Program-made: the position numbers and the translations under genes
The notes under the pieces: model-generated
What the model saw: the letters and a program-made list of their open reading frames with translations, nothing else
Databases searched by the model: none
Told to the model about the DNA's origin: nothing
Origin: Prevotella sp.
GTDB taxonomy: Bacteria; Bacteroidota; Bacteroidia; Bacteroidales; Bacteroidaceae
Length of the DNA: 28,363 nt
Assembly (NCBI GenBank): GCA_024681875.1
Contig: JAILAA010000116.1
Location: 1 to 28,363, forward strand
Reading direction: 5' to 3'
In this document: positions 559-28,363 of the stretch, one piece after another
Layout of the letters: every line of letters starts with the position of its first letter
Numbering within the stretch: position 1 is the first letter of the stretch

Positions 559-3015
559 TCAGAAGGGGTATCCGATGGCGATGTGCAGCGTGTGCATGTC
601 CTTGAATCGCGGAATGTTAAAATAGCCGCCTTTCCCCGTTTCGTAGGGCAGATGCAGGCCGAAGCCCCAGTCCACGCGCAAGACAAGGAAGTCCAAGTCG
701 TAGCGCAGACCCACACCAGTGCCGGTGGCCAGCTGGTTGAAGAAATTGCGTGCACTAAAGTTCCACCCCTTAGACAATATATTATTCCAAATAAACATGG
801 CAAGATAATCATCTTCGTCCGTCACATCTATATCATCCATTTCGTAAGTCAAAGTCTCTGAACTCCACACATTGCCTGCGTCAAGGAACACAGCGCCATA
901 GAGATTGCCGAAGAGGCGCTGGCGTAGTTCCAGATTCATCAGTACCTTCATGTCACCATTCCTAATAACATAATCAATCTCGCGACTGTCTAAGCCTATA
1001 AACGAGCCAGGGCCGACGCTGCGCACAGGGAAGGCACGAATACTGTTGGCGCCACCCACGTAGAAGCTCTCGCTGAAAGGTATCTCATCACTGTTGCCAT
1101 ATACCCACATCAGGCCAAGGTTACAATGCCCTACGAGCTTCGCATGAGAGTTTAGCGTCCAGGTCTTGGTCAAGTCGGTCTCCACCTTCAGAAACTGTGA
1201 ATAGGGATTCTTAAACAGTGTCTTTTCTTTCTCCTTCCAACCGTTACCCTGCACGAGCACGTCGTAGAGGGCAGTGGCATTGCCCGCCTCCTCAACCGTC
1301 GTCTCCCAGCGGATGGGGTGGCGCATCCTGGCGGGAGAGGTGTAGGTATAGGTATAGCGCATCTTGGGGATGAACTGGTCCTCCATAGTTGCAAACAAAT
1401 ACAAATTGTCGGCCAGCATACTGTCAAAGCGCTCGGTATGGCTATTCATAAACTGATATTTCACCGTCAACGGCGAGAACTCGTGGCGGCTTGTGGCCGA
1501 CGGCTGCCAGCGGTAAATCCACTCGCCACTCACAACATGCATCTTGTAATAGTTTGGGCGGCGTATCACATCGGTTGAAAACCTTGCAATGGTAGAAGGC
1601 GGTGCATAGGGACGCCGACGCCGGCGTGGACGGGTTGGGCCGGAAGCGTCAGTCATGCCCACCTCACTAATGGGCCTGGCTTGACCGGCAAGTCTCATGC
1701 GTCTTCTCCTCTCGCTGCCGAAGCGGGGCAGCAAAGTACGCGGAAACTCAATGCTGGCATCCAAACCATACTGGTAGCTGTTCATGTCTGAACCCTTGCT
1801 CGATGCCTCCCACTCATAGGCGCCATGCAGGTTGACGTCGAGTTTCTCGCCGCCGTGGAAGGCATTGCGCCGCGTCAGACCAATCCTCATTTCCGGACCA
1901 AAACGGCCTATGGTACGATTGACGAAGTTGGTCTCCACGTAGAAGTCGTATGGCTTGTCGAAGACGCAGTCAAGCAACAGGTCGAGGGAGTCGCCGCGTG
2001 GCGTGAACTGAAAGTCGATGGTTGAGAAGACGCCTGTGGCATTGACCTTCTGCATGGACTCCTGATAGTTATCGTAGCTGAATAGGCTGCCGGGGCGCAG
2101 CTTCATACCCTGCATAATGACGCGGGCACGTATAGGCGGACGCTTGCCGCTATACAGCACCTTCAGAAAGTTACGGCCCAAGACGCTGTCGGTCCTTTCC
2201 ATCTGGGAACGGCGCAAGCGCACACTGGTGTTACCGACATACCACGGCTGCAATGCGCGCTGGGGCAGTGAATCGGCCAACTGCAGACGTAAGGTGGCAG
2301 TGTAGTCAACGCCATCCGTTCTAACGGTATCGGCCAGAAACGAGGCATAATTGGACTGATAATAGTAATAGCCCTTGTTGCGGAAGAGCTTGGCCAGGCG
2401 CGTGCGCTCGGCATCGAGGTTCGCCACACTGAAAACGGCACCGGGCCTCAGTGTACTCTCTGAGAGCGTGGAGTCTATGAGTAATTGCATGGCAGGCGGA
2501 AATCCCACGTAGGTAAGCGTATCTACGCGGAAGACCGTGTCCATCGTCACCGTGTAGGCCAGCTTCGCTTTCTTTGGATTCTTCTTCGTTACCTCGCGGT
2601 AGCTGACATCGCCATGCAGATAGCCGTGCGTGCGCAATACTTGCTTGGCCACCTGGGCGCGCAAGGCAGGATTGACCTGGCTCATCAGCACAGGCTGCTT
2701 GCCAAAGGTACTGCCAATCCAGTGGCCCAGTTTCGTATTGGATTCCTGGGTGATATTCCATATCCACAAGCCGTAGGGAAACATACGGTAGTAGCTGCTG
2801 CCGAAAAGGGCGCCGTTGGGAGCCGTGGCCAAGGCGGCTTCAACCTCCTCTTGCGTATCCTCAGCGTGCTGGTTGTGCTCATAATTGGTGTAGGCAATCT
2901 TTTCCAATCCCACGAAGAGCTGATCGTCGTCGGGCACGTATTTTGTGACGGAGCAGGCTGTGAGAAACAGTACAAGGGCTCCCAAAGGCAAAAGTAGTCT
3001 ACTTGATGCTATCAT
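559..3015 (-). CDS. tamL: TamL: lipoprotein Omp85-family outer-membrane protein partner of TamB
   Basis: The 818-residue protein begins with a lipoprotein signal (hydrophobic segment, then lipobox LTAC with the acylated Cys at residue 21). POTRA-like repeats follow in the first half (roughly residues 30-370). The C-terminal half is a 16-strand-type beta-barrel ending in an aromatic residue (IAIGYPF), as expected for the Omp85/BamA/TamA superfamily. A basic, Arg-rich loop (GPTRPRRRRRPY) sits in the barrel region. In Bacteroidota the TamA role is filled by this lipidated form, called TamL. The start codon lies 17 bp inside the end of tamB, implying translational coupling in a tamB-tamL operon. 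The assignment to the family is firm; the exact cargo (outer-membrane proteins or phospholipids) is not shown by the sequence. Confidence 0.9.
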   Translation of the reverse strand: MIASSRLLLPLGALVLFLTACSVTKYVPDDDQLFVGLEKIAYTNYEHNQHAEDTQEEVEAALATAPNGALFGSSYYRMFPYGLWIWNITQESNTKLGHWIGSTFGKQPVLMSQVNPALRAQVAKQVLRTHGYLHGDVSYREVTKKNPKKAKLAYTVTMDTVFRVDTLTYVGFPPAMQLLIDSTLSESTLRPGAVFSVANLDAERTRLAKLFRNKGYYYYQSNYASFLADTVRTDGVDYTATLRLQLADSLPQRALQPWYVGNTSVRLRRSQMERTDSVLGRNFLKVLYSGKRPPIRARVIMQGMKLRPGSLFSYDNYQESMQKVNATGVFSTIDFQFTPRGDSLDLLLDCVFDKPYDFYVETNFVNRTIGRFGPEMRIGLTRRNAFHGGEKLDVNLHGAYEWEASSKGSDMNSYQYGLDASIEFPRTLLPRFGSERRRRMRLAGQARPISEVGMTDASGPTRPRRRRRPYAPPSTIARFSTDVIRRPNYYKMHVVSGEWIYRWQPSATSRHEFSPLTVKYQFMNSHTERFDSMLADNLYLFATMEDQFIPKMRYTYTYTSPARMRHPIRWETTVEEAGNATALYDVLVQGNGWKEKEKTLFKNPYSQFLKVETDLTKTWTLNSHAKLVGHCNLGLMWVYGNSDEIPFSESFYVGGANSIRAFPVRSVGPGSFIGLDSREIDYVIRNGDMKVLMNLELRQRLFGNLYGAVFLDAGNVWSSETLTYEMDDIDVTDEDDYLAMFIWNNILSKGWNFSARNFFNQLATGTGVGLRYDLDFLVLRVDWGFGLHLPYETGKGGYFNIPRFKDMHTLHIAIGYPF

Positions 3016-22100: not shown

Positions 22101-23008
22101 CCTCGACGCAGAAGAACCGCCACTACATCAAGAACTCGCTCATCGAGGGTGCCGTTGACTTCATCTATAACGGCGGCGACGTCTATCTTGACGGCGACAC
22201 GCTGGAAATCAACCGTCCTTCAGGCGGCTACATCGTCGCTCCCTGGCACACGGCTGACACAAAGTGGGGCTATGTGTTCCAGAACAATGTCATCCGTCCG
22301 CACAAGGGCGTCAACGTTACTGACGTATGGTTGGGACGTCCCTGGCACGGCGAGCCGAAGACCGTATACATCAATACGCAGACCTTCGTTAACATCCCTG
22401 CCAAGGGCTGGTACAACACCATGGGCGGACTGCCTGCTCTCTGGGCCGACTACAACACCGTCGATGCCAACGGCAATCCCGTAGACCTCAGCCAGCGCGA
22501 ATCCTACTACTATTATACCGATAGCAATACGGGGCAGAAAGTGGAGAAGTTCAACGTGAAGAACTACCTTACCGCCGAAGAGGCAGCACAGTACACCATC
22601 AAGAATGTGTGCGGCAGCACCGACAACTGGCAGCCGGACCTGATGTGTGAGGCCTGTGATGCACCCATGGTGACTGGCGAGAATGGCAGACTGACGTGGA
22701 ACGCTGTGCCTTACGCCATCTGCTACGTCGTGACAAAGGACGGCGAGGTGGCAGGCGTCACCACCGACACCAGCTTCAACGGTTATACAGACGGCGACAA
22801 ATGGCAGGTGCAGGCCGTAAACGAATATGGTGGACTGAGCAAGAAGGCCATGGCCAATGTCAGTACTTCCATCGGTGAGGCCCGTACTGTAAGGAACTAC
22901 AGCGAGGCAGTCTATTCCCTTGACGGTCGCCGGATCAACGGTGTACTTAAACATGGTTTTAGTATTGTACGTCTCCATGACGGCACCGTTGTCAAACAGA
23001 TGCGATAG
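19142..23008 (+). CDS. Giant multidomain secreted pectin methylesterase (CE8)
   Basis: A 1288-residue protein with a signal peptide (about 1-21). In order it has a beta-sandwich module (about 24-200), a second beta-rich region (about 210-385), two divergent InlB/Flg_new-type repeats (about 391-465 and 468-547), another copy of the first type of module (about 551-722), an SbsA-like Ig domain (about 732-830) and the CE8 right-handed beta-helix (about 838-1160). Catalytic residues are visible: Gln959 in GPQ, Gln981 and Asp982 in YQDTW, Asp1006 in GAVDFIYNGG, and Arg1066 and Trp1068 in WLGRPW. A fibronectin-like segment and a sorting-type tail (YSLDGRR...FSIVRL...VVKQMR) end it. It removes methyl esters from homogalacturonan. 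It follows the CE7 gene by 14 bp and is the last gene of the operon. Confidence 0.9.
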   Translation: MKKTNFFLTLLALLGMTTVNAETVQLADWNMEQSDDIAVTWFAQGGAPSIAPDECIGEKADYVLTGWSENRYWQLCTGYQNKVLRIENTAANNITDYTDASQHNVYYEVQFPTKGYKNISVAFACAYGKNEVATLEAVVSTDGGQSWFDAGAYETMGNWWLYKDNTVTLSANNKEKVILRLIAGNGCASNWNLDYVKVSGEAMEAAEPVNEQDFTLSWPLKDGANSATTAAASKEGVFSVAEMTVGDKLLMNGTRTDGGICETMFQPVEQAGAQEDGNAITFTLKPKKGLTFTPKSFAFHASRVGTNGGNFDVVVISGGTTTEIAKDERPQLVKEAPYFTEYNYDLSNIVATDDVLTLKIYIRGLATNKQYAFSDVVVTGDVEGQIEAVPVYTLSISLGTEGAGKVSSNPVGNEFDEGTHITVSATENYGYHFAAWVDENGEIVSTENPYSFDISANTILTATYTKNNVYALNLKRSEGVNDNLVQYAPTGNVVDGVHYYEEGTNVKLTAVNNRILTFTGWEGDAQGTEQEYELKMDGEKNVTANFSTADYIVGWDLYYDQPSKDRAADYKADSENAGMLTLRKADGTTTSWLTRGIGNGQENGKFAARIWKYLSEEWYWEISFSSKGYENLSISSCIGDDYNTYSVNNVQYSVDGTNFTTIGTFNPPARGWDGPKEFALPAEANNQDRIWIRWMPDRTSEKVGVESDYDGTSIAEIFVLADASGATDQQATLVSSNPAEGATDVSANGSIILNFDNKVKAGTAAATLLATAIDASPVETLTPIISGKSAIFKYSGLKYATDYTFTMPEGVLLSRSGQPVPAVTINFTTMERKQPESRLYDAIVDASGSALDGFPVEKTFSTVQAAIDAAPAGLGKPWLIFIKNGDYNEHVDIPKTKPYIHLIGQDRDKTVIKDNRLSGGENAVHVSVGATVVVNADNCFFENLTMENSYGHEQQAGPQALALNTGGDRIALNNVALLSYQDTWITTSTQKNRHYIKNSLIEGAVDFIYNGGDVYLDGDTLEINRPSGGYIVAPWHTADTKWGYVFQNNVIRPHKGVNVTDVWLGRPWHGEPKTVYINTQTFVNIPAKGWYNTMGGLPALWADYNTVDANGNPVDLSQRESYYYYTDSNTGQKVEKFNVKNYLTAEEAAQYTIKNVCGSTDNWQPDLMCEACDAPMVTGENGRLTWNAVPYAICYVVTKDGEVAGVTTDTSFNGYTDGDKWQVQAVNEYGGLSKKAMANVSTSIGEARTVRNYSEAVYSLDGRRINGVLKHGFSIVRLHDGTVVKQMR

Positions 23009-23033
23009 GCCCTATACTTACATATTAGCCTAT
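23005..23033 (+). terminator. Weak hairpin after the esterase operon
   Basis: ATAGGC (23005-23010, including the stop codon) pairs with GCCTAT (23028-23033) around a 17-nt loop, and the tail is AT-rich without a clean T-run. It may slow or end transcription of the esterase operon. Confidence 0.3.
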
Positions 23034-23576
23034 ATTATTCATAAGAATTATTTATAACACGAATTACCATGAATTGAACACAAATATTCAGGAATTATTT
23101 TTTGAATAATTATGTGGGATTGATTTGGACTTTTGTAAGTAACTGAAACACAGACAGAAGCATAATACCCCCAAAAGTGAACGGTACAAAAAAGTGTAAT
23201 AGCGAAAAATGGGAAATCTAAGAGTTTTGTAGAGCAAAACCTGCCTTCAAAAATGAGAAAGATTTAACAATTCATTAGGATTATTTAACTCTTGTTTTTG
23301 GGCATTTTTGCCGTTTGACAAGTCTGGTTAACAATAGTAATTCTTTTTTTGCAAACATATATATTGCATGGCTGCAACAAGAATCCAAAGTACATCCGTG
23401 TTTTTCGAGAAAGAGAAGTTGAATAATTGAGTAGTATAGAAAACAAAGTATGGACTTTCATCTACGTATACATCAGCTACTCCTACGACACCAGTCTTCA
23501 AACATTTCGACCAAATGGCTTGAAATATTGAGATGGATTCGTCGGAGCAAGGTTCAAGAAAAGTATTGAAAAAACT
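23009..23576. other. 568-bp AT-rich gene-free stretch
   Basis: No gene can be supported here. Visible items are an AT-rich hairpin (AATTATT at 23093-23099 with AATAATT at 23105-23111), a small GGCA-TTTT-TGCC hairpin near 23301-23312, and a 39-codon open frame from 23450 to 23569 starting with ATG. That frame encodes a basic peptide beginning MDFHLRIHQLLLRHQ that I do not recognise. The composition is clearly more AT-rich than the flanking genes. It could be a decayed gene or mobile-element remnant, but no element ends are visible. Confidence 0.5.
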
Positions 23577-24455
23577 CTACTTTTCGTCGCGATACTGCAT
23601 TGGAGTCATACCTACTTGCTTCTTGAAATAGCGGTTGAAGGCCGTCGGCTCAGGGAAATTCAATCGTTCACCTATTTCATATATCATGAGGTCAGAGTGT
23701 TTCAACAGCACTTTGGCCTCTGTTATTGTGGTGCGGTTCAGCCAATCCATCACCGAGAGCCCCGACTGCTGGCGTACCACGTCGCTCAGATGGTTGGCGG
23801 TCAGTGCAAGCTGACTGGCATAGAAAGGGATGCTGCGCTGGGTGGTTCCATATTGTCGAAGCAGCGTGAAGAATCGACTCAAAATTTCTTCGCTGCGAGA
23901 GAGTTTGCGATGCGAGCCATCAGCAACGAGTGCCCTCTGCATTTTGTTGACATCGGCCACCATCGAGAGGACGAGGAAACTGATGGCACTGTCAGAATGC
24001 TCTGCACGCCCCATCTGTCTGGCCATCAAGTCGAAATACTCACCGATACGCTGATTGTCATCCTCGTGTAGCGACAGATGCAACACTTCTACTGGAAAAA
24101 TACGTTTGGACAATTCATGGTCGATGCCGGGAAGGTCGATAACAGCCAGGGCTTCCACGGCATAGTCATCAGAGAATTCCAGCACTTCTACGATGGTATC
24201 AGACGGCAGCACTATGACATCTCCCTGACACAGCGAATGGTCAAGAAGATTGAAACGATAGACGGCCTTGCCACTGATGATGCGAAGAAACCGCTGTTCT
24301 GTCAGTCGCATGGGTTGGCCAATCATTGCTCCTTGTGTCACGATGTCCGACTGGCGTACAAGGATAAAGCGCCTGTCCATCATATTTTTCGGGTGGGCAG
24401 CAGAGCCGATTTTGTCTTTTATCTGCTCGGCATTCAGCGTCTCAATGGTCTTCAT
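23577..24455 (-). CDS. AraC-family transcriptional regulator next to an HXXEE gene
   Basis: About 292 residues: an N-terminal cupin-like sensory region (about 30-130) and a C-terminal AraC helix-turn-helix pair (about 190-290). The first helix-turn-helix is around IPFYASQLALTANHLSDVV, the second around MIYEIGERLNFPEPTAFNRYFKKQVGMTPMQYR. I chose the ATG at 24455. An upstream in-frame TTG at 24473 would fall inside the promoter's TATTTTTG box (24471-24478). The gene is divergent from the HXXEE membrane protein at 24581 and probably controls it. The regulator at 7768 has the same domain order but is otherwise clearly different. Confidence 0.85.
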   Translation of the reverse strand: MKTIETLNAEQIKDKIGSAAHPKNMMDRRFILVRQSDIVTQGAMIGQPMRLTEQRFLRIISGKAVYRFNLLDHSLCQGDVIVLPSDTIVEVLEFSDDYAVEALAVIDLPGIDHELSKRIFPVEVLHLSLHEDDNQRIGEYFDLMARQMGRAEHSDSAISFLVLSMVADVNKMQRALVADGSHRKLSRSEEILSRFFTLLRQYGTTQRSIPFYASQLALTANHLSDVVRQQSGLSVMDWLNRTTITEAKVLLKHSDLMIYEIGERLNFPEPTAFNRYFKKQVGMTPMQYRDEK

Positions 24456-24470
24456 ACGGGTAATTTTCTG

Positions 24471-24478
24471 CAAAAATA
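24471..24478 (-). promoter_or_regulatory. -7 box of the AraC-type regulator at 24455
   Basis: The minus strand reads TATTTTTG, a perfect TAnnTTTG, only about 16 nt before the ATG at 24455. It therefore predicts a very short leader and decides the start codon choice. Confidence 0.55.
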
Positions 24479-24544
24479 ATCATTTTCCGTGAAACTGCAC
24501 ATAAATGGAGAGAAAAAGTTCATCAAACACTGCAAAAAACCGTG

Positions 24545-24552
24545 TATCTTTG
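24545..24552 (+). promoter_or_regulatory. -7 box of the HXXEE gene
   Basis: TATCTTTG is a perfect TAnnTTTG 28 nt before the ATG at 24581. The -33 TTG is not evident, which suggests activation by a regulator, most simply the divergent AraC-type protein. Confidence 0.6.
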
Positions 24553-24580
24553 CACCGTCAAACATTTAAACATTACGATT

Positions 24581-25189
24581 ATGACAAAGTTTATCAAATT
24601 TTACGCACTGGAGATTTACACAGTATTGGCCATGCTCTTTATCGTTTACACCGCCATGCTGGGCGAACTGTCTGTGATTCAGAAGCTGGTAGTGATTGAC
24701 GCTTTCCTCTTCATTCTGCACGAGTGGGAAGAAGGACACTATCCAGGTGGATTTATCAACCTGATTGCTGGGATGACACAAATTAATCCAAGCGACGAGA
24801 TCAAGCGTGCCAGCCGCATTCCTGCCGGCATCCTGCTGCTCCTGCTGAGCATCGTGCCGTTCATCTATCATGATGTGCCGATGATAACGATGATCGTAGC
24901 CACCTTTGGCATCATCGAGGGCTTTGTCCACACCATGGGTATCCGTCTGTTCCGCACGAAGTACTTCTATACTCCTGGCGCAGCAACAGCCTGGTTGGAA
25001 CTGGTGGTAAGCGGATTGATGATTGCTCACCTCGTAATGAACAATCTCGGCCAGTGGCAGGATTATGTTTTTGGTCCCATCATCATGTTCATCTGCTTCG
25101 GCATGCTTCAGAAGACGATGACCCTAATGGTCGGCATCAACTACAGCGATATGCCGAAAATGGTCAAGAGACAGTGGAGCAAGGAATAA
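24581..25189 (+). CDS. HXXEE-domain integral membrane protein
   Basis: A 202-residue protein with about five hydrophobic segments (roughly 10-28, 78-98, 99-120, 138-160 and 165-185). The motif LHEWEEG (His47, Glu50, Glu51) is the hallmark of the HXXEE family, a group of membrane proteins of unknown function. A second Glu/His cluster (EGFVHTMG) could complete a metal-binding site. I start at the ATG at 24581, which begins MTKFIKF and lies 28 nt after a perfect -7 box. A longer frame from 24542 would begin inside or ahead of that box. The divergent AraC-type gene is the likely regulator. The enzymatic role, if any, is not known. Confidence 0.82.
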   Translation: MTKFIKFYALEIYTVLAMLFIVYTAMLGELSVIQKLVVIDAFLFILHEWEEGHYPGGFINLIAGMTQINPSDEIKRASRIPAGILLLLLSIVPFIYHDVPMITMIVATFGIIEGFVHTMGIRLFRTKYFYTPGAATAWLELVVSGLMIAHLVMNNLGQWQDYVFGPIIMFICFGMLQKTMTLMVGINYSDMPKMVKRQWSKE

Positions 25190-25313
25190 GAAAAAAATGG
25201 AATCCCTCTTAGACGAACGAAAATATTCCAACCACAACGATATGTAGCTCATGAAATCGTAACAAGCAGTTTGTATTATTGACCATAGAAGCACTCTGAA
25301 AATGTTTTATTGT

Positions 25314-25362
25314 ACCGCCATTGTGTCTTGGATGCTCTAAGTGTCTGGGATTCAATGGCGGT
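25314..25362. repeat. Two-tiered inverted repeat, candidate structured RNA
   Basis: A perfect 10-bp stem (ACCGCCATTG at 25314-25323, CAATGGCGGT at 25353-25362) encloses a second hairpin CTTGGA-TGC-TCTAAG (25327-25341, one G-U pair). Nearly identical direct repeats (GTGTCTTGGAT at 25323-25333, GTGTCTGGGAT at 25341-25351) overlap the inner part. It lies 125 nt after the HXXEE stop. No U-tract follows, so a simple terminator is unlikely. Confidence 0.5.
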
Positions 25363-25548
25363 TAATAATTCAAAGTCAACTAAGGACACTGAAAATGGAT
25401 TTCAATCGTACCAATGTTTATATGTCGCCAGACAGATAATCTTTGGTTCAAATTGATTCAAAAGATAGGGAAAAAGAAAGGTTGAGGTGGCACTTTGAGG
25501 CAAAATGCAGAATTTTACGGCTACATTTAGTCTTTTCCTTCAAAAAGT

Positions 25549-25579
25549 TTGGCTATTCCAAATAAAAGCCGTACCTTTG
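25549..25579 (+). promoter_or_regulatory. Consensus promoter of the AbiF-like gene and its RNA leader
   Basis: TTG (25549-25551, within TTTG), exactly 20 bases, then TACCTTTG (25572-25579) is a full consensus match. Transcription is predicted to start at about 25585, just before the leader hairpin. Confidence 0.75.
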
Positions 25580-25584
25580 CACCA

Positions 25585-25640
25585 ACAGTTCCCGCCACGC
25601 CTCCTAACAATGCGTACCACGGCGGGACTTCGTCATTTAT
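25585..25640 (+). ncRNA. Candidate structured RNA (abiF-type) ahead of the HEPN gene
   Basis: The predicted transcript opens with a hairpin: CCCGCC (25591-25596) pairs with GGCGGG (25621-25626), and an inner ACGC (25597-25600) pairs with GCGT (25612-25615). There is an 11-nt loop and a five-base ACCAC bulge on the 3' side. AbiF genes are known to be stably associated with a conserved upstream non-coding RNA, the antitoxin of the pair. Position and GC-rich pairing in an AT-rich context fit that RNA, but I cannot test the match to the known covariance model. The 3' boundary is a guess. Confidence 0.5.
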
Positions 25641-25646
25641 AAAGGT

Positions 25647-26540
25647 ATGAGATATAACAAGCAACCTACAGACATTACCACTCAGCTTGCCATGCTGAAG
25701 CAGCGCGGTCTCATCGTTAGTGACGAGGACACTGCCTTGAAGCAACTTGCCTCCATCAGTTACTTCCGTCTAGCAAGTTACTGGAAAATCTTCGAGACAG
25801 ACGAGGCTACACATCAGTTCGCCAGCGACACTCGTCTTGAAGATGTCATTTCCCTATACACATTCGATAGAGAGCTGCGTTCCATCATCTTCACTGCCAT
25901 ACAGGACATAGAAGTTGCCCTGCGCACACGAATCATTCATTTCTTCTCCCTGCCACATGGGGCTTTTTGGTTTATGGACGCGTCGAAGTTCAACAGTCGT
26001 AGCATCTTCCAGACATGCCTTGACAACATACAGGTGGAGCTCAGCCGCTCAAAGGAAGAATTTCTACAGGAGCACTTTGCCAAATACAGTTCGCCTTCCA
26101 TGCCTCCCGTATGGAAGACGCTGGAAGTCGTTTCTTTTGGCAATCTCTCTAAGTTGTATGCTAACATGAAAGACGTGGAGGTAAAGAAACAGGTGGCAAA
26201 GAGCATCGGTCTGCCACAATACACCTATCTGGAAAGTTGGATGCGCAGTCTCACCGTCCTTCGCAACTGCTGTGCCCATCATGCCCGTGCATGGAATCGT
26301 CGCTATCCAGCCATGCCCCAGTTGCCAAGACGATTGCCGCTTACATGGGTTGATACACAACACATACGTCCCATGAAACTGTACGCTCAGCTATGCACCC
26401 TTCTCTATTTGGAACAGAGCATAACGCCAAACAGTCAAATAAAAAACAGGCTATTAAGCCTTCTCAATGCCTATCCCAATACCATCACCAGGCAAATGGG
26501 CTTCCCTCGCGGATGGGAGAACGAACCGCTGTGGCAGTGA
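25647..26540 (+). CDS. AbiF/AbiD-like abortive-infection protein (Abi_2 family HEPN RNase)
   Basis: A 297-residue protein of the Abi_2 family. The N-terminal signature is visible (LKQRGLIVSDEDTALKQL, then ISYFRLASYWKIF at about 37-49), as is the central YTFDRELRSIIFTAIQDIE (71-89). Two RX4H motifs of HEPN nucleases are present: R93-TRII-H98 in the first half and R206-NCCA-H211 in LRNCCAHHARAWNR. AbiF-type proteins are RNA-targeting toxins in phage defence, restrained by an associated non-coding RNA, and are the proposed ancestors of Cas13. Length fits the family. It stands alone on the plus strand with its own strong promoter. The RBS is not Shine-Dalgarno-like (AAAGGT directly abuts the ATG). 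A lone Abi protein without an antitoxin partner is the alternative. Confidence 0.88.
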   Translation: MRYNKQPTDITTQLAMLKQRGLIVSDEDTALKQLASISYFRLASYWKIFETDEATHQFASDTRLEDVISLYTFDRELRSIIFTAIQDIEVALRTRIIHFFSLPHGAFWFMDASKFNSRSIFQTCLDNIQVELSRSKEEFLQEHFAKYSSPSMPPVWKTLEVVSFGNLSKLYANMKDVEVKKQVAKSIGLPQYTYLESWMRSLTVLRNCCAHHARAWNRRYPAMPQLPRRLPLTWVDTQHIRPMKLYAQLCTLLYLEQSITPNSQIKNRLLSLLNAYPNTITRQMGFPRGWENEPLWQ

Positions 26541-26599
26541 AGCTCCCACACCCATCACGACTGCGTGGAACTATAACTATAATAAAGGAGAATCAAAGC

Positions 26600-26689
26600 A
26601 TGAGCAGACTGGCCGACGGACACGAGGGCTGTCCGCTCATTGCTTACAAAGAGAGAGAATGGAACAGAAGTTCAGCAATAACAGTTTAG
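26600..26689 (+). CDS. Possible 29-residue small protein with a Shine-Dalgarno sequence
   Basis: An ATG at 26600 opens a 29-codon frame (begins MSRLADGHEGCPLIAYKERE) preceded by AAAGGAG at 26584-26590 with 9-nt spacing. Strong Shine-Dalgarno sequences are rare in the other genes here, so this is notable, but there is no family match that I recognise. It lies 59 nt after the AbiF-like stop. Confidence 0.25.
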   Translation: MSRLADGHEGCPLIAYKEREWNRSSAITV

Positions 26690-26763
26690 GCCTCGAGACG
26701 CTACAGGAGTTCTGCGAACGGGAGGGCGACCTGAAAAATCGTAAAATAGCACCCATGATGTGA
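26659..26763 (+). CDS. Possible 34-residue small ORF overlapping the previous one
   Basis: An ATG at 26659 opens a frame beginning MEQKFSNNSLGLETLQEFCE and ending in KIAPMM. It is hydrophilic and helix-prone, with no recognisable domain and no RBS. It overlaps the preceding small frame by 31 bp in another phase, so at most one of them is likely real. Confidence 0.15.
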   Translation: MEQKFSNNSLGLETLQEFCEREGDLKNRKIAPMM

Positions 26764-26772
26764 CAAATAGTC

Positions 26773-27456
26773 TTAACCATTATTCACTTCCAAGATATAC
26801 CCTCGTTTTTTTAGTGAGACGATTGAGATGGAAGTGTCTGCTTCGAGCAGCTTGCGGAGATAGGTTATCTGAACATTGAGAGCGAGTGAATTGGCATAAC
26901 TGTCGTTACCCCATACTTTTTGCAGAATGGTTTCTCGTTCTACAGTCTGGCCGATATTCTGGGTGAGGATGGTAAGGATTTCTGACTGGCGGGCGGAGAG
27001 ATGTTGTACTACGCCACCTGTTTCTATGGTCGAGAGATTGCGGTCGAAGATAGTCTGTCCGATGGTGATTTGCGTTGGAAGCGACGGCTGCCGATAATCG
27101 AAACGCTCTTTGATTTTAGCAATGAGTTCTTCGGGATAGAAGGGCTTGGGAATGTAGTCATTGCCTTGCAAAGAAAAGCCTTTCAGTCGGTCGGCCTTTT
27201 CGGTGCAGTCGGTCAAGAAGAAGATGAGTACATCGCGGTCTTGCTCACGAATTAACCGTGCCAACTCAAAACCATTCATCTCTGGCATATTGACATCGAG
27301 CAACACTAAATCGGGCTTGGCAGCAGAAAACGCCTCCCAACCTTTGCGTCCATTCTCGGCGTAAGTGACTTCATAGCCCTCCACCTCTATGAACTTCCGC
27401 AAAAAATCAGAGTTCTGGCGGTCATCGTCCACAAGCAATATCCTAATTCTTTCCAT
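26773..27456 (-). CDS. OmpR/PhoB-family response regulator (RprY-like)
   Basis: A 227-residue protein with a receiver domain (about 4-118) showing the acidic pocket DDD (10-12), the phospho-acceptor Asp54 in LLDVNMPEMNG, Thr82 and Lys104 in PKPF. A winged-helix transcriptional-regulator C domain follows (about 128-223, with LSARQSEIL and VQITYLRKLLEAD). The gene begins 14 bp inside the end of the histidine kinase gene, so the pair is translationally coupled and forms one two-component system. The layout resembles RprX/RprY of Bacteroides; the signal and regulon are not visible. Confidence 0.92.
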   Translation of the reverse strand: MERIRILLVDDDRQNSDFLRKFIEVEGYEVTYAENGRKGWEAFSAAKPDLVLLDVNMPEMNGFELARLIREQDRDVLIFFLTDCTEKADRLKGFSLQGNDYIPKPFYPEELIAKIKERFDYRQPSLPTQITIGQTIFDRNLSTIETGGVVQHLSARQSEILTILTQNIGQTVERETILQKVWGNDSYANSLALNVQITYLRKLLEADTSISIVSLKKRGYILEVNNG

Positions 27457-28363
27457 CCGTCTGTGGTATTAAAATGGTGAATGTCGTGCCTTCGCCCTCG
27501 GTACTCTCAAACGTAATCGTGCCACCGTGCGCCTCCACCAGCAGTTTTACATAACTTAGTCCAAGTCCGATACCAGGGATGGCCTTGTCCTTTGCCGTTT
27601 CGCTACGGTAGAATTTGTCGAACACATACCGCTGGTCGGCTCGTGCAATGCCGATGCCATTATCGGCTACGCTGATTTGCAGCAGTCCGTCCGTGCGCTG
27701 CTGATAGTCAACACGTATAGTCACTGCCTCGCAGGAGTATTTGATGGCATTCTCCAGCAGATTGCAGATGACGTTGCCGATATGCATTCGGTCTGCCCAC
27801 GCTTCCACATCACCTCCTGCCACGATTTCCGTCTCCACCTCCTTATCGCTGGGAATATTCTGTTTGCCGATACATTCTTCTATCAGACTACGAAGCGAAA
27901 AGTGTGACTTCATCAGCGGAATCCCAGTGGCATCATTCAGCGTGATGTCGCGTAGTTTCGAGAAATACGAAGTCAGGTTATCCAGCTCATTGTGCGAGCT
28001 GCTGAGTATGCGCTGTTTACCTTCCTCGTCCTGCATCATCCGTTCATTACCCATGAACGACACACACATCTTCAGCGTCGAAATGGGCCGCTTCAATTCG
28101 TGAATCATCGTGTGCAGGAACTCCTGCCTGATGGTCTCAATATGCCGTTGTTTGCGGATGGTCAGTATCTGATAGACCAGGCAGAAGATGAGGAACACCG
28201 ATAGCAGCACGGTTATTAGTAACGTATAGGCCATCCGGCGGATGACAGGCGAAACGCTGATAGTCGTAGTTACCACAACCTGCTGTCCCTCGAAGATGTC
28301 GTAAGGATAAGACACTTGCATTACGGGTTGCCAAATGGATCCCTTTGTTTGCATGGACGGTTG
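27443..28363 (-). CDS. Sensor histidine kinase, C-terminal part (RprX-like)
   Basis: The frame is open to the right edge, so the N terminus is missing; about 306 residues are present. They include the end of a periplasmic region, one transmembrane helix (MAYTLLITVLLSVFLIFCLV), a HisKA region with the phospho-accepting His in HTMIHELKRP, and a HATPase domain. The HATPase N box is NLLENAIKYS, the G1 box is DNGIGIA, the F box is FDKFYRS and the G2 box is GIGLGLSYVK. It phosphorylates the response regulator whose gene overlaps its stop by 14 bp. The missing N terminus presumably holds the rest of the sensor domain. Confidence 0.92.
   Translation of the reverse strand, partial: QPSMQTKGSIWQPVMQVSYPYDIFEGQQVVVTTTISVSPVIRRMAYTLLITVLLSVFLIFCLVYQILTIRKQRHIETIRQEFLHTMIHELKRPISTLKMCVSFMGNERMMQDEEGKQRILSSSHNELDNLTSYFSKLRDITLNDATGIPLMKSHFSLRSLIEECIGKQNIPSDKEVETEIVAGGDVEAWADRMHIGNVICNLLENAIKYSCEAVTIRVDYQQRTDGLLQISVADNGIGIARADQRYVFDKFYRSETAKDKAIPGIGLGLSYVKLLVEAHGGTITFESTEGEGTTFTILIPQTDGKN

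Follow-up and report, generated by a model that had tools for sequence, protein, structure and literature searches.

The 28,363-nt contig JAILAA010000116.1 of Prevotella sp. (assembly GCA_024681875.1), referred to in full as the window, very probably contains an AbiF module of about 1 kb. This module consists of a promoter-like element, an abiF RNA in the predicted 5' leader as the likely antitoxin, and an Abi_2/AbiF protein predicted to be a homodimeric HEPN RNase. The locus is an ordinary member of the known AbiF–abiF RNA toxin–antitoxin (type III-like) family. The role of the RNA as antitoxin is likely by close homology. The components of the module are as follows:

25548..25579 (+): promoter-like element, Bacteroidota type, with TTTG at 25548-25551 and TAnnTTTG (TACCTTTG) at 25572-25579; read from the sequence
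25590..25627 (+): abiF RNA (RF03085); Rfam match, covariance model R1 and covariation
25628..25646 (+): spacer of 19 nt between RNA and start codon, with an interrupted T-tract (longest run 3); sequence and leader comparison
25647..26540 (+): AbiF gene, ATG start, 297 aa; open reading frame (ORF) call, with the Abi_2 domain at residues 33-217

The RNA was recognized by the Rfam abiF model, which matches the window at 25591-25627 with 43.7 bits (gathering score 37; E 6.3e-07 in 401 nt). Across the whole window the E value is 4.4e-05, and no other Rfam match exceeds its gathering score there. The RNA lies on the same strand as the AbiF gene, 19 nt upstream of the ATG. A nested hairpin at 25591-25626, described in the first-pass annotation of this DNA, is present: stem P1 pairs 25591-25596 with 25621-25626 (CCCGCC/GGCGGG), is extended by an outer U25590-A25627 pair, and encloses stem P2, in which 25598-25600 pair with 25612-25614 (CGC/GCG). 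Covariance model R1, built from 25 hairpins, yielded 57 matches in 60 sources. The window RNA scores 46.4 bits with R1 and is one of its training sequences, which match by construction.

The hairpin also covaries over homologous loci. Among 33 distinct sequences, 97.3% of cells are paired and 7 of the 8 pairs have changed on both sides. The covariation score was reached by none of 500 shuffles and the number of pair types by 2 of 500, and shifting the partner strand abolishes the signal; the underlying alignment was fitted to the proposed structure, a bias in favour of that structure. In folding, the 49-nt leader outdid 199 of 200 shuffles (z -2.64), and a 116-nt stretch only 190 of 200 (z -1.76). 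The assignment to a Bacteroidales AbiF–RNA system stands as far as the AbiF-type protein, the abiF RNA leader and the Bacteroidales host records are concerned. Two structural variations were noted among relatives. The loop of the RNA is enlarged by an added insertion in L045 (1500-1566) and L084 (905-956), and two RNA copies precede one AbiF gene in L017 (4687-4979), L021 and L022 (4871-4976) and L077 (768-977), as in Clostridioides difficile RCd22.

The annotated promoter 76 nt upstream of the gene corresponds to TAnnTTTG, which starts 75 nt before the ATG and is of Bacteroidota type; TTTG and TAnnTTTG follow the consensus of such promoters. The transcript likely starts at about 25585, so that the RNA would be transcribed first. 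Of 45 distinct abiF RNA copies from Bacteroidota, 43 have a TAnnTTTG that ends 9-12 nt before the start of the RNA model, an arrangement for which the chance is about 0.002 per copy. A sigma-70 promoter near the RNA was rejected: a scan of 25200-26800 gave no site at the RNA and no more sites than in shuffles.

Among the 21 leaders from other Bacteroidota, 16 have a run of at least 5 T behind the hairpin; such a run occurs at 3 of 164 control gene starts. For this reason, the antitoxin hairpin of these other leaders resembles an intrinsic terminator placed ahead of the toxin gene. Three of the T-tract leaders have modest RNA fold z-scores (L018, -1.17; L016, -0.77; L025, -1.60). In the clade of the window, such a run is found in 1 of 11 leaders (Fisher p 0.0005, uncorrected for kinship). 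The T-runs of the other leaders, along with the closeness of the hairpin to the start codon, would fit a hairpin that works chiefly in cis, as an attenuator or in translational control of abiF, rather than as a trans-acting antitoxin. We consider this improbable, as 10 of the 11 leaders of the window clade lack the T-tract yet have retained the two stems along with most of the loop and linker. Moreover, the C. difficile abiF RNA acts in trans and binds the protein, according to PMC12373285, and RNA is bound to AbiF in PDB 8VZ6.

As annotated, the 297-residue product of the ORF at 25647-26540 (+) is an Abi_2 protein (PF07751; 193.9 bits, Pfam cut-off 25.6). PADLOC labels it AbiD, and it also matches an abortive-infection PHROG; AbiD, AbiD1 and AbiF are treated as a single group in PMC12373285. 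The window protein shares the fold of PbAbiF, the protein of the PbAbiF–AbiFr complex of a Prevotellaceae bacterium (PDB 8VZ6), with which it is 34-35% identical. PMC12737573 reports that PbAbiF forms a homodimer whose active-site residues lie where the two chains meet. The R210A+H215A variant of PbAbiF is reported to be inactive (PMC12373285), and these residues are equivalent to R206 and H211 of the window protein. The latter, which carries RNCCAH at 206-211, is predicted to act as a HEPN RNase toxin.

Two RX4H strings had been annotated in this protein, and both are present as letters: R93..H98 (RTRIIH) and R206..H211 (RNCCAH). Conservation was counted after excluding matches that span 200 residues or fewer or contain in-frame stops; 111 of 120 database proteins (270-340 aa) entered the counts. 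R206, N207 and H211 are invariant in all 44 distinct locus proteins and all 111 database proteins. R93 is an arginine in 43/44 and 110/111 proteins, respectively. Position 98 is a histidine in 101 of the 111 closer database relatives, but in the 44 diverse locus proteins it varies extensively (H 18, Y 9, N 7, Q 5, R 3, K 1, D 1), and PbAbiF has N at the equivalent position. By these counts, the first string is not a conserved HEPN motif, while the second is invariant. The claim of two complete HEPN motifs per chain, as in Cas13, is not supported. In the structure model, R93 and H98 belong to a single continuous helix (64-104), on which residues five positions apart point about 140 degrees away from each other; R206 lies in helix 192-210, and H211 just past its end. 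Since H98 is variable and shares one helix with R93, the first RX4H seems to be a chance feature of this lineage atop a conserved arginine.

Cas13 has been proposed to descend from AbiF (PMC12737573), and a Cas13-like active site, in which R93/H98 and R206/H211 of one molecule meet as two HEPN motifs, was considered. The presence of both strings, the near invariance of R93 and the frequency of H98 in close relatives speak for such a site. It is nevertheless very unlikely, and was dismissed on conservation, given the variability of position 98 and the N in PbAbiF; the modelled orientation of R93 and H98 and the single Pfam Abi_2 domain that covers both strings also argue against it. Cas13, like AbiF as predicted here, is a HEPN RNase with an RNA partner. 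Unlike Cas13, the window AbiF has one invariant HEPN motif per chain and only 297 residues. No CRISPR array was detected in 23000-28363, the part of the window that was searched around the gene, where only 2-copy partial repeats occur. The window protein has no NCBIfam match at E values up to 10 and matches only Abi_2 in Pfam, libraries that may not cover every Cas13 subtype. VIA-align listed no Cas13 chain, which says nothing against common descent.

How strictly RNA and toxin are linked was surveyed in 101 genomes from the family to which G005 belongs. RF03085 was found at 43 places in 36 genomes and PF07751 gave 70 matches in 47 genomes; the filters of the RNA survey were stricter, so that weak RNAs were lost, and 42 of the 43 places are above the cut-off. 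Of the 43 abiF RNAs, 29 are followed on their own strand by an Abi_2 match no more than 400 nt away. Over 38 intact loci, RNA and protein distances correlate (Mantel r 0.67, reached by 0 of 5000 permutations).

Several observations weigh against reading the locus as a toxin–antitoxin module of this kind. The Mantel correlation is expected of a co-travelling pair, but also of shared descent alone. No Abi_2 match lies within 400 nt downstream of 14 of the 43 RNAs (L145-L157, L151 having two copies), which are orphans at the level of Pfam detection. Conversely, the models detect no RNA at 17 of the 57 long Abi_2 matches, and at 13 of the 57, mainly from a more distant branch, none was seen by eye either. 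Whereas RCd22 contains two motifs as well as a terminator of its own (PMC12373285), the window has one motif and no clear terminator. The structure model is weak at residues 101-170, where block confidence (predicted local distance difference test, pLDDT) is 57-73.

AbiF remnants, defined as tblastn matches at E <=0.01 (weakest E 2e-5, L149), were detected downstream of 7 of the 14 orphan RNAs. The remaining RNAs are followed by a RhuM-family gene in L157, an MBL-fold gene in L152, a short ORF in L153, and otherwise by no clear gene. In L157, the RhuM-family gene (1154-1981, minus strand; PF13310, 80.1 bits) occupies the place of AbiF, with an abiF-like RNA 19 nt before it. TAnnTTTG is kept in 12 of the 14 orphan copies (by eye), and the stems of the orphan loci are still paired in 99.1% of 109 cells (A5; 15 matches, including one extra L145 copy). 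Toxin deletion with survival of the RNA is thus seen repeatedly in these sequences, as antitoxin logic predicts, although a recent unselected deletion would look similar. In four further loci (L023, L026, L027 and L028), the RNA is intact and AbiF is truncated or internally deleted within the contig. A literature search on orphan non-coding RNAs of AbiF toxin–antitoxin systems gave no paper; it missed the original abiF-motif and 8VZ6 papers, and the attenuator and orphan observations may have been published before.

For the 57 long Abi_2 matches, an Rfam-level RNA was found at 25; R1 added 10 of 13 further loci and then 5 of the 19 remaining, giving an RNA by model for 40. A hairpin was seen by eye, unscored, at four more loci (L134, L140, L161 and L165). 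The rule that the toxin always occurs with the RNA, which held at 26 of 29 loci at first, therefore failed on the wider set, and some Abi_2 proteins evidently do without abiF RNA. Eight of the 13 RNA-less loci (L167-L174) share a related helix of the IE[VIN]xxRTxxxY type, slightly different in L171, and may represent a separate Abi_2 branch without abiF RNA.

That the window copy is decayed or silent, its sequence intact but unexpressed, is suggested by the broken AbiF genes of relatives L023, L026, L027 and L028, but is highly improbable for a copy with a full-length ORF, the invariant RNxxxH, perfect stems, a promoter-like element and near-identical proteins (96-99%) in the protein database.

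A working scheme for the toxin–antitoxin module can be modelled on PbAbiF and its C. difficile counterpart. One RNA would be bound per AbiF chain, the two R206/H211 pairs would build a single active site where the chains of the dimer meet, and this site would be silenced once RNA is bound. Because no clear terminator separates RNA and gene, the RNA of the window clade would be made within the toxin mRNA and freed by processing by AbiF itself or by partial termination. Binding of AbiF to this leader, 19 nt ahead of the start codon, would in addition hold back further production of AbiF. Should the supply of RNA drop, as it might after a phage has shut down transcription in its host, unbound AbiF would cleave RNA and growth would stop; this trigger is the least supported step of the scheme.

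Known systems resemble the window module to different extents. AbiFCd–RCd22 of C. difficile phi027/phiC2 likewise features an abiF RNA upstream of an Abi_2 gene under one promoter and, according to PMC12373285, is prophage-borne, whereas the window module resides among sugar-use and housekeeping genes. The phiC2 AbiF is 26.7% identical to the window AbiF, and C. difficile AbiF carries RNQCAH at the site equivalent to RNCCAH (L080). AbiD/AbiF proteins of Lactococcus plasmids belong to the Abi_2 family like the window protein but are distant (22.9% identity to one plasmid match); R1 found no abiF RNA in the stretch fetched for that match (L083). In L006 (4944-7199), two AbiF modules occur in tandem, with proteins 90% and 38% identical to the window AbiF and RNAs of different subtypes. 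The second L006 gene is PbAbiF-like by its IEVAVRSAIVN and RNSCCH motifs, and its RNA has an AGC..GCU stem and a CAAAUG linker, versus CGC..GCG and UACCAC in the subtype of the window. Two Abi family genes are also close together in a Chryseobacterium plasmid (L079:995-2885).

Promoter-like element, RNA and gene occur in a fixed order in relatives. DNA similarity between the window and L001-L003, L005, L006, L008, L010 and L011 begins at 25526-25542 and breaks off at 26534-26543; it starts later in L007 (25572) and L009 (25564), and extends further left in L004 (25412) and L012 (25307). Because similarity mostly ends at the module borders, the three components appear in most cases to form a single unit that can be transferred. 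L012 and L030 also match the window at 23112-23348 and may share its neighbourhood. The 31 loci from genome contigs belong to Prevotella, Prevotellaceae, Bacteroidaceae or other Bacteroidales-type records, many from ruminants.

The neighbourhood in the window is chromosomal in character, with sugar-use and housekeeping genes: TamB/Omp85 genes, relatives of acetate kinase and phosphotransacetylase, GH43, pectinesterase, acetyl xylan esterase and regulators. A two-component pair lies downstream of abiF; the interval between them (26541-26772) contains only short overlapping ORFs, possibly gene remnants. A phage origin was rejected, 24500-28363 giving no DNA match in the phage collection at the 'distant' setting. 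A plasmid origin was likewise rejected: the 429 plasmid records with a protein match are all less than 60% identical, the best among the matches listed being 54.2%.

The locus adds a clear-cut Bacteroidota member to the toxin–antitoxin family proposed as the origin of Cas13, and its analysis corrects a tempting misreading, as the two RX4H strings are no conserved Cas13-like pair. The main interest lies in the side observations rather than in the locus itself. The comparison raises two testable points, namely the hairpin as terminator in sister clades and orphan abiF RNAs as trans antitoxins. We tentatively suggest, as a possibility that we rate below even chances by a wide margin, that the abiF RNA of Bacteroidota might serve both as antitoxin and as T-tract attenuator of toxin synthesis. 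The clade of the window would have lost the attenuator and would rely on AbiF binding or cutting its own leader, and solitary RNAs may disarm AbiF modules in trans after deletion of the toxin.
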